Source: Hymenobacter puniceus (GTDB lineage Bacteria; Bacteroidota; Bacteroidia; Cytophagales; Hymenobacteraceae). From it: a stretch of 64,000 nucleotides of DNA. Below the pieces are notes generated by a model, which searched no databases, had not been told where the DNA came from, and saw only the letters and a list, made by a program, of their open reading frames with translations. The translations under genes and the position numbers were made by a program. Location: the NCBI RefSeq assembly GCF_014333525.1, contig NZ_JACSCX010000003.1:744001-808000 (forward strand), in the 5' to 3' direction. Numbering within the stretch: position 1 is the first letter of the stretch; every line of letters starts with the position of its first letter. This document shows positions 11,166 to 55,686 of this stretch, piece by piece.

Positions 11166-12017
11166 CTATGAAATCATTTTCTCAATCGGTAATACCAGGA
11201 TGCCTTCGGCGCCGACGGCTTTGAGCTGGCTGGTGATGTGCCAGAAGTCGTCCTCGTTTACCACCGACTGCACCGATACCCAGCCTTCCTCGGCCAGCGG
11301 CGTAATCGTCGGCGACTTGATACCGGGCAGCAACTGCTTCACCGCATCCAAGGCCGCTACGGGGGCGTTGAGGATGATGTACTTGTTACGGCGGGCGCGG
11401 CGCACGGCCTGCATCCGGAACTGCAGCTGCTCGAGCAGCTCCTTTTTCTCGGCGCTCAGGTTCTGGTTGGCAATGAGCACGGCCTCCGAGCGGAACACAG
11501 TTTCCACCTCGCGCAGGCCGTTGCCCAGCAGCGTGGAGCCGCTGCTCACAATATCACAGATGGCCTCGGCCAGCCCGATGCTGGGCGCAATTTCCACCGA
11601 GCCGCTGATGGTGTGCAGGTTAGCTTTCACGCCGCGCTCCGCGAGGTAGTCGCCCAGAATGCGCGGGTATGAGGTGGCAATGTTCACGCCCTGCAAATCC
11701 TCGATGGAGTCGTAAGTGGCGGCGCGGGGCACGGCCAGACTCAGGCGGCACTTGCTGAAGCCCAGGCCTTCCACTTCCAGCGCGGGAAAGCCGGCTTCCA
11801 CCAACACGTTCTGGCCCACAATGCCCAGGTCGGCCACGCCATCCTGCACGTAGCCGGGAATATCGTCGTCGCGCAGGTAGAGGATTTCGAGGGGGAAGTT
11901 GGTGGCTTCGGTTTTGAGCTTGTAGGAAGCCGAAAGGAAGCTGATGCCGCATTCCCGAATCAAATTCAGGGAATCTTCGCTTAAGCGGCCCGATTTCTGG
12001 ATGGCCAGACGGAGCAT
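11166..12017 (-). CDS. hisG: ATP phosphoribosyltransferase, long form
   Basis: HisG joins ATP and PRPP in the first, committed step of histidine synthesis and is usually feedback-inhibited by histidine. The 283-residue length and the extra C-terminal domain (about 210-283, with KSPTITPLAEEGWVSVQSVV) identify the long, hexameric form, which does not need HisZ. The catalytic part shows LRLAIQKSGRLS, GVADLGIVGQNVL and the PRPP loop region IVSSGSTLLGNGL. It is the first structural gene. A tandem repeat fills its immediate 5' side, and a histidine-rich leader lies about 200 bases upstream. Confidence 0.97.
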   Translation of the reverse strand: MLRLAIQKSGRLSEDSLNLIRECGISFLSASYKLKTEATNFPLEILYLRDDDIPGYVQDGVADLGIVGQNVLVEAGFPALEVEGLGFSKCRLSLAVPRAATYDSIEDLQGVNIATSYPRILGDYLAERGVKANLHTISGSVEIAPSIGLAEAICDIVSSGSTLLGNGLREVETVFRSEAVLIANQNLSAEKKELLEQLQFRMQAVRRARRNKYIILNAPVAALDAVKQLLPGIKSPTITPLAEEGWVSVQSVVNEDDFWHITSQLKAVGAEGILVLPIEKMIS

Positions 12018-12025
12018 ATGTCTTT

Positions 12026-12059
12026 CAATTAGTAATTAAGAATTAGTAATTAAGAATTG
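12026..12059. repeat. Tandem TTAGTAATTAAGAA repeat before hisG
   Basis: Two tandem copies of a 14-base unit (ATTAGTAATTAAGA) and a partial third end 8 bases before the hisG ATG. The same word family recurs at 41090-41303. Confidence 0.85.
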
Positions 12060-12210
12060 ACCGGGGTGGCCAAGGCTTAACTGTAATTCGGGTAGGAATC
12101 TGTGGGGAGGGGTTGAAAGGCTGGCCAGCGGCAATAGGCTGCCGGGGCCACCACTTTCGGGGGCCGGGGAACCTGAAGCGGTTCGCCCAACGGGACAATA
12201 TGCGTGTATC

Positions 12211-12230
12211 ATTCCTCTAAAAAGAGGAAT
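12211..12230 (-). promoter_or_regulatory. Hairpin over the stop codon of the his leader
   Basis: ATTCCTCT and AGAGGAAT form a perfect 8-bp stem with a TTTT loop. The leader stop codon TAG spans the loop-stem junction and the last His codons lie at its 5' base, a layout expected of a pause or switch structure in an attenuator. Confidence 0.65.
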
Positions 12231-12342
12231 GGTGGCCGTGCAGATGATGATGCGCCGCGCGCAGCCCAGCCGAGGCGCCGCACGTAGCGGACGCAGCCCC
12301 GGGGCTGTTGGTGCAGAAGAAAAGCGCGGCAGATGCAGGCAT
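12217..12342 (-). CDS. hisL: Histidine-rich leader peptide of the his operon
   Basis: A 41-codon ORF read toward hisG ends in AAHHHLHGHHSSF and a stop codon: six histidines within eight codons. Such a His-codon cluster upstream of hisG is the classic sign of ribosome-mediated attenuation, in which scarce charged tRNA-His stalls the ribosome and lets transcription continue. The ATG at 12342 lies about 19 bases after a good -7 element (TACTTTTG). A perfect hairpin overlaps the stop codon. A clear terminator with a T tract between the leader and hisG was not found by eye; the GC-rich stretch at 12125-12180 is the best candidate. A longer ORF in another frame overlaps this one and has no features. 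Confidence 0.7.
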   Translation of the reverse strand: MPASAALFFCTNSPGAASATCGASAGLRAAHHHLHGHHSSF

Positions 12343-12360
12343 AAAAGCAGAGTTGCGGGG

Positions 12361-12368
12361 CAAAAGTA
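12361..12368 (-). promoter_or_regulatory. Predicted -7 element of the his operon promoter
   Basis: TACTTTTG on the minus strand matches the Bacteroidota -7 consensus TAnnTTTG. A -33-like TTCG lies 18 bases upstream. The expected transcript would start a few bases before the leader ATG at 12342. Confidence 0.6.
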
Positions 12369-12547
12369 CACGGGAATCGGTCAGAACGAAATTAAATCCA
12401 GCAAAAATTCTGTAGAACCTGGACCTTTGCCCTCCCGTTTGCCTTTAACCGATTGTTGGCACTATTGTTTCTGCACGTATTGCTATCCGTTGGCGCTCGG
12501 CTCCTATTGCCTCTACTACCCGTCTCCTGCCACCTGTTGCTTTTTGT

Positions 12548-55612: not shown

Positions 55613-55686
55613 GGCGGGGTAGCTCAGTTGGTTAGAGCACAGGATTCATAACCCTGAGGTCACGAGTTCAACTCTCGTCCCCGCTA
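55613..55686 (+). tRNA. tRNA-Met (anticodon CAT)
   Basis: The 74-base cloverleaf has the acceptor stem GGCGGGG / CCCCGCT (with a G-U first pair), D stem GCTC / GAGC, anticodon loop TTCATAA, and T arm ACGAG-TTCAACT-CTCGT. The discriminator is A, and CCA is not encoded. The first pair is not the C-A mismatch of initiators, so it is an elongator Met or an Ile2 (lysidine) tRNA. The next gene is an integrase, so its 3' end is the probable attachment site. Confidence 0.93.

Follow-up and report, generated by a model that had tools for sequence, protein, structure and literature searches.

The leader reading frame before hisG

Does the histidine-rich reading frame upstream of hisG in Hymenobacter puniceus control the his cluster, and by what means? 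In the window (the whole stretch of 64,000 nt that we analysed), this leader ORF lies on the minus strand at 12342-12217 and consists of 41 codons and a TAG stop (12219-12217). It is read toward hisG and its translation is MPASAALFFCTNSPGAASATCGASAGLRAAHHHLHGHHSSF, with AAHHHLHGHHSSF as the end of the peptide, just as a sequence-only reading of the locus had stated. That reading had also counted six His codons in eight; these, HHHLHGHH at 12252-12229 (minus), are the predicted regulatory codons, which we counted codon by codon over 63 rows of relatives that keep the ORF. It had further placed a -7 element ~19 bases before the ATG, and a box of the Bacteroidota form TAnnTTTG, TACTTTTG, is present at 12368-12361 (minus), its end 18 nt 5' of the ATG. 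In Flavobacterium the -7 box has been mapped at -12 to -5 (PMC9723704, in excerpt); if the box occupies the same position here, transcription would start at about 12356. A TAnnTTTG box was found 16-22 nt 5' of the leader ATG in 60 of the 63 rows of the window's leader type (type A).

The leader stop is separated by 199 nt from the start of hisG (12017-11166, minus; Pfam PF01634 and PF08029), the first gene of the cluster. On the same strand, Pfam assignments give the order hisG, histidinol dehydrogenase, aminotransferase, Imm50-like protein, IGPD-domain protein, glutamine amidotransferase, two His_biosynth proteins and PRA-CH/PRA-PH, which we provisionally take as hisG, D, C, (Imm50-like), B, H, A, F, IE. 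The Imm50-like protein (142 aa; PF15594, E 3.9e-12) is encoded at 8460-8032 (minus), between hisC and hisB.

The sequence-only reading had named relatives lacking the His-codon run as the finding that would count against it. We scored stop-terminated ORFs with at least four His in eight residues within 330 nt of hisG. The gene was present in 119 of 120 Hymenobacter genomes, 110 of which were examined (G027, G061, G062, G090, G094, G096, G097, G107 and G111 were left out). The run proved to be kept: a His-rich ORF was found at 108 of 110 loci on the sense strand, the window's own included, and at none on the antisense strand. With thresholds of at least three or at least five His in eight, the counts were 109 sense vs 2 antisense and 93 vs 0, respectively. 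The two exceptions were L098, with three His in eight at most, and L112 (genome G018), the sole locus of the 110 without any His leader before hisG. The L112 locus sits on a 12-kb contig, in an assembly of ~450 contigs.

Outside the genus, all 26 Pontibacter, Rufibacter and Adhaeribacter loci carried a His-rich ORF in the sense direction (antisense: 0/26); these 26 and six loci of type D (see below) were counted from an additional 80 contig loci, which for the most part duplicate the same species. In the order sample outside Hymenobacter, in which 60 of 61 genomes with hisG were examined (G167 was left out), the ORF was present at 11 of 60 loci vs 0 antisense. The phylum sample held 103 genomes with hisG; of 25 further loci read there, those closest by hisG score, 19 had the ORF in the sense and none in the antisense direction, a share that is biased upward. 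Judged by these predicted ORFs, the His leader is nearly universal in Hymenobacter and patchy across the phylum.

The leaders fall into several types. Type A, HHxHHGHHSSF* and close variants, occurs in 63 of the 110 Hymenobacter genomes, that of the window included; type B, HHHHLWxAGLCAGC*, in 28; and type C, HHHHHL* and similar, in 18. Type D, HHHHHSSPGEE*, was seen at six loci outside the 110, and type E, HHFHHSS*, at 23 Pontibacter/Rufibacter loci; three Adhaeribacter loci stand separate from types A-E. The hairpin described below as P1 is common to types A and E, and types B and C have neither P1 nor the motif that follows it. In types B/C (within L071-L118), only 6-8 nt separate the end of the -7 box from the leader ATG, as seen in all 46 rows. 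Assuming the Flavobacterium box position, transcription would start 2-4 nt before the ATG, and a nearly leaderless leader mRNA is predicted. In Flavobacterium psychrophilum, leaderless mRNAs make up only 5.5% (PMC9723704, in excerpt).

The 63-row alignment of type A leaders (A1) bears marks of translation. All 123 internal gap runs in coding columns were multiples of three (3, 6, 9 or 12), counted per row, so that related rows repeat one event; gap runs 3' of the leader stop were mostly of 1-2 columns. Both His codons, CAT and CAC, are in use at the conserved His columns; the one exception is the last column, which lies inside P1 and is CAT in 63/63 rows. The columns between the His positions vary in residue. 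His-rich peptides are able to bind metals, and the ORF might encode a small peptide of this kind that serves some purpose of its own and has no part in his control. This we regard as highly improbable: the His run precedes hisG in the genus, in the family and at more distant loci, whereas the remaining sequence and the length of the peptide differ between leader types.

We conclude that the ORF of the window encodes a true histidine leader peptide, which makes it very likely that stalled ribosomes control hisG. It is strongly supported by the sequence comparison that the translated His run would make ribosome progress before hisG depend on charged tRNA-His. Of the his attenuation that had been proposed for this locus, the sensor half (a translated His run and its dependence on charged tRNA-His) has held up through conservation, in-frame gaps and synonymous codons. 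For the output half, no conserved terminator/antiterminator pair was seen in type A, so that another structure, as the sequence-only reading had suggested, may serve as the switch.

The P1 hairpin and the CATAT motif

A hairpin, P1 (12231-12210, minus), spans the end of the leader ORF from the last His codon through the SSF codons to the stop; on folding it takes the form CATTCCTCT-TTTT-AGAGGAATG. The perfect 8-bp hairpin noticed earlier over the stop codon is thus real, and it folds as nine perfect pairs, not eight, around a 4-nt loop. When the 200 nt around it were shuffled by mononucleotide, 6 of 500 shuffles contained a perfect 8-bp hairpin. The core TTCCTC:GAGGAA was identical in 63/63 type A rows; as it is invariant within Hymenobacter, covariation cannot probe its pairing there. 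The sole source of double changes for P1 is one locus of another family, f9 (L241), in which AUUCUCC:GGAGAAU replaces AUUCCUC:GAGGAAU and thereby contributes two compensatory double changes.

Nine nucleotides 3' of GAGGAA stands the motif CATATTGTCC (12202-12193, minus; form cATATnGnCC). Its ATAT, G and CC are invariant in the type A and type E alignments, and the sequence of the spacer varies. Of the 63 type A rows, 58 have 9 nt between GAGGAA and [CT]ATATnG and the other five have 8 nt; in type E, the distance is 9 nt in 22 of 23 rows and 10 nt in one. As judged from these alignments, the hairpin, the 9-nt spacer and AUAUnGnCC are one predicted element, which is new here.

We built a model of P1, spacer and motif (R1) from 24 rows. 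Searched against its own genome at E up to 1, it gave a single match, at 12239-12191 of the window. Among 241 genomes of the order, 22 were matched, once each, in three families (16 in the window's family, 1 in f9 and 5 in f19); at least four of these 22 (G000, G021, G112 and G127) are genomes of the model's own rows, and the same may hold for other same-family matches. Twelve of the 20 genomes of the same genus in the order sample were unmatched. All 22 matches have the orientation of hisG and end 78-190 nt 5' of its ATG; 20 read CATAT and two (L312, L314) CATAC. In a fourth family, a hairpin GGCTCTC:GAGAGCC followed after 10 nt by CATATTACCCC was seen by eye at L228 and L229, a likeness that the model did not support (L228, which is outside the rows of the model: 13.5 bits, E 0.53; L229: unmatched up to E 1). 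At L244 and L214, P1 is present and the motif absent.

We also considered P1 as a generic element. Its own genome has two other TTCCTC-N-GAGGAA sites, one within a long ORF and one at an ORF end followed by a T-run; neither is leader-like, and the idea was dropped. Elsewhere in the genome, CATATnGnCCCCGTTGGG had three matches with 1-2 mismatches vs one for the reversed control, the context being read for one of them; this pattern, which carries four C, misses the window's own motif site.

Structures before hisG and the output of the leader

Compared with its shuffles, the complete leader RNA has a folding energy lower by 4.9 standard deviations. Downstream of the motif follow two hairpins: P2, GGGCGAACC / GGTTCCCC (12188-12166, minus), with 91.0% of cells paired on A1 and five of eight pairs changed on both sides, and P3, GGCCCCC / GGTGGCC (12165-12146, minus), with 97.9% of cells paired. 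For P1-P3 jointly, 95.5% of cells on A1 form standard pairs, vs 42-58% in slid controls, and 49 cells are double-changed, vs 11.6 in shuffles; none of 500 shuffles reached the observed values. Six of the eight P1 pairs counted are invariant in A1, and it is P2 and P3 that supply the covariation. A short hairpin, P4 (CGGCAG / TTGCCG; 12144-12129, minus), comes next: a hairpin occurs here in 48 of 63 rows, with a mean score of 6.1 vs 3.4 in shuffled sequence. With the window taken alone, the minimum-energy fold has an extended P4 in place of P3. A long-range helix around P2-P4, GNCCCGUUGGG:CCCAACGnnnGGGNC, was seen by eye in many rows and was not upheld on the alignment, which is gappy there: the observed values were reached in 13/500 shuffles for per cent paired, 42/500 for double changes and 17/500 for covariation.

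The sequence-only reading had found no classic T-rich terminator before hisG, and we agree: a terminator scan of the window's leader returned one weak site vs a shuffle mean of 1.3, which is not above chance. This terminator-like hairpin, T1, TTGGCCACCCCGGTCAA followed by TTCTTAATTA (12073-12057, minus), had 61.7% of cells paired on A1 with modest covariation, and as a conserved hairpin next to hisG it was rejected as weak. In 25 of the 63 type A rows, the 6 nt that follow P4 include at least three T; the tail in the window is CTGGCC, with no U-tract. By a loose scan, not controlled for chance, 44 of these 63 leaders have at least one terminator-like site. Neither an antiterminator nor a U-tract terminator emerged as conserved from the folds, masking and alignment of type A. 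Directly 5' of hisG (12064-12013, minus) lie A/T-rich tandem AATTCTTAATTACT repeats. This stretch recurs at at least 15 other places in the genome with 81-97% identity (40 of 64 candidates scored) and is apparently a dispersed short repeat.

The same sensor could act through Rho, with the pyrimidine-rich untranslated stretch before hisG as a loading site that stalling protects or refolds. The missing U-tract terminator in type A would fit this, as would the base composition of type A (C 34%, T 28%, G 20%) in the part that begins at +100 past the stop and ends 45 nt short of hisG. The excess of C over G is, however, moderate, and both the T-rich tails after P4 in the 25 rows just mentioned and the T-tailed terminators of distant loci speak against Rho, which we consider rather unlikely.

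We compared averaged folds with and without a ribosome masking part of the leader, using pairs with a mean probability >0.25. In type A, a ribosome masked at the first His changed little in silico. With the mask at the last His or at the stop, P1 was lost and P2 and P3 shifted within ~0.1; P4 (last-His mask) and a four-pair helix (stop mask) just passed this ~0.1 threshold. Folding for alternative structures, which the sequence-only reading had called for, thus showed that P1 opens under masking and revealed no conserved switch partner in type A. In type B (28 rows), the terminator had a computed mean probability of 0.32, which dropped to 0.17 once the last His was masked; 2:3 pairing rose from 0.49 to 0.65, and 1:2 pairing fell from 0.48 to 0.11, as expected from the mask. 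The type B rows scattered widely. Among the more distant loci inspected, 10 of 16 had T-tailed terminators by eye. Five of the his leaders (L279, L281, L284, L287 and L289) share a near-identical terminator, AAACCCGUUUGA...CAA(A/G)CGGGUUUUU, and at these loci the hisG start (AUGAGUA) repeats letters from the loop of this terminator.

P1 might itself be an antiterminator, in a switch of three segments rather than four. An early stall in the His run would let P1 form and block a terminator that uses the 3' arm of P1, and translation through P1 would free this arm for termination. Two of the three Adhaeribacter loci (L173, L196) are built in this way. At these two, GGGGAAUAAU or GAGGAAUAAU is paired to AUUAUUCCUC and a T-run comes next, so that one strand just past the leader stop serves both P1, as its 3' arm, and a T-tailed terminator, as its 5' arm. 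This arrangement suggests a three-segment attenuator at these loci. In type A and Pontibacter/Rufibacter, on the other hand, the freed 3' arm had no conserved downstream partner in averaged folds, and the best arm matches, obtained without a shuffled control, were scattered and of 5-9 pairs. For the window's leader we consider an antiterminator role of P1 improbable.

The output could also be translational, the leader governing access to the hisG start. The window lacks a clear terminator, and its hisG AUG has an unpaired probability of <=0.01 because GACAUAUGC around the AUG pairs with GCAUAUUGUC of the motif. This pairing persists, however, when the last His codon is masked. Over the 63 type A rows, duplexes between motif and start had a mean of -5.95 kcal/mol vs -6.02 for shuffled motifs and -5.94 for other windows, and they were weaker than duplexes of motifs with the starts of other species (-6.65); over the 23 type E rows, cross-species duplexes equalled or surpassed the rows' own in 49 of 60 permutations. 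Strong in the window and equalled by controls over both sets of rows, this duplex was rejected as a conserved feature, and we judge a translational output to be quite improbable.

Transcription termination before hisG is most likely the output, because other leaders have recognisable switches, namely the T-tailed hairpins of distant loci and the type B structures that respond to masking.

Proposed mechanism and known systems

Taken together, we read the region as a ribosome-mediated histidine attenuator of the leader-peptide type for the his cluster that begins with hisG, in which P1 would pause RNA polymerase; we give this reading a probability of about 0.78. The ORF, its translation, the selection for His, P1, the spacing, the motif, P2 and P3 are supported by comparison of related sequences. 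We propose that polymerase starts near 12356, transcribes the leader ORF and would then be held by P1 roughly a dozen nucleotides downstream, at the CAUAU motif. An arriving ribosome would open P1 and release the polymerase, after which the two would move together. If histidine is scarce, the ribosome would stall in the His run and the polymerase would continue into hisG. If histidine is plentiful, the ribosome would end at the stop inside P1 and depart, and with the ribosome gone transcription would presumably end in the structured untranslated stretch before hisG.

The assignment of P1 follows from its layout. Like the window, E. coli hisL has a His-codon leader peptide before hisG and a hairpin right after the last His codon. 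The hisL hairpin, CCTGA:TCAGG, which we take to be the his pause hairpin, carries the TAG stop in its loop; P1 has the same layout and an unrelated sequence, and for this reason we read it as a pause hairpin. In the E. coli his pause, 11 nt separate the hairpin from the pause site. The geometry of P1, spacer and motif, a hairpin at a fixed short distance from a conserved site, would fit a pause of the his type. The motif matches the elemental-pause consensus imperfectly: at a position where the consensus calls for a pyrimidine, A stands in many of the Pontibacter rows. That type A and Pontibacter/Rufibacter leaders carry a dedicated hairpin-stabilised polymerase pause (P1, 9-nt spacer, cAUAUnGnCC) working with a termination step other than a U-tract is a tentative proposal, which we hold to be less likely than not.

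Such a leader would place histidine control with lineage-specific RNA parts in nearly every member of one genus and, in patches, throughout a phylum about whose gene regulation little is known. Should the element of P1, spacer and motif prove to be a polymerase pause, the coordination of ribosome and polymerase could be tested on an example from outside Proteobacteria. Translation start without Shine-Dalgarno sequences has been stated for Flavobacterium (PMC9723704, in excerpt), and the pause case, if true, would lie in bacteria that start translation in this way. The hairpin and motif at fixed distance are the part most deserving of experiment.

Compared with E. coli hisL, the leader peptide of the window has 41 rather than 16 residues, no strong T-tailed terminator follows it, and the AUAUnGnCC motif at fixed spacing is added. 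The Rfam family His_leader (RF00514) did not match the window, and relaxing the search of 11950-12450 to E up to 10 brought no match either; the E. coli leader, as a control, scores 131.6 bits. At gathering and relaxed thresholds, no RNA family was found in the leader. A His T-box had no Rfam match in the window either, the window's sole Rfam match being a tRNA gene at 55613-55686. Vitreschak et al. reportedly predicted some attenuators in Bacteroidetes/Chlorobi in 2004. Bacteroid-trp RNA precedes trp genes and has Trp codons. Like the leader of the window, it is a candidate cis-regulatory RNA in Bacteroidetes (RF01692; PMC2864571, in excerpt); it differs in the amino acid concerned and has no match in the window.

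His-rich leader peptides with candidate attenuators, as here, precede his operons of the Bacillus cereus group, Eubacteriales and Erysipelotrichales, but these Firmicutes leaders belong to another phylum and have conventional antiterminator and terminator hairpins (PMC9413887, in excerpt). In 2010, before adding His leaders of bacilli of their own, the authors of PMC2965389 (in excerpt) knew of leader-peptide systems shown only in Proteobacteria and Actinobacteria. PMC8305728, on the his genes of this superphylum, mentions attenuation once, for E. coli/Salmonella, and Hymenobacter never. We recognised no description of a Hymenobacter his leader in the open-licence literature.

Nearer to the window, loci of the same class within the phylum, which we take as flavobacteria, also have His leaders, mostly with strong T-tailed terminators; among the same-class loci read, we saw no P1/CAUAU element of the Hymenobacter kind. 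For F. psychrophilum, strong clues to leader-peptide attenuation before amino-acid operons have been reported, together with a structured element upstream of hisG that occurs in other Flavobacteriaceae genera and has no Rfam hit (PMC9723704, in excerpt). Likened by its description, that element shares phylum and gene with the leader of the window. The sequence-only reading had implied that the logic of attenuation was new for Bacteroidota; these clues and the hisG element, as far as the excerpt goes, partly pre-empt it. Leader-peptide attenuation in Bacteroidota has already been reported, and the Hymenobacter leader is a variant with RNA parts of its own.
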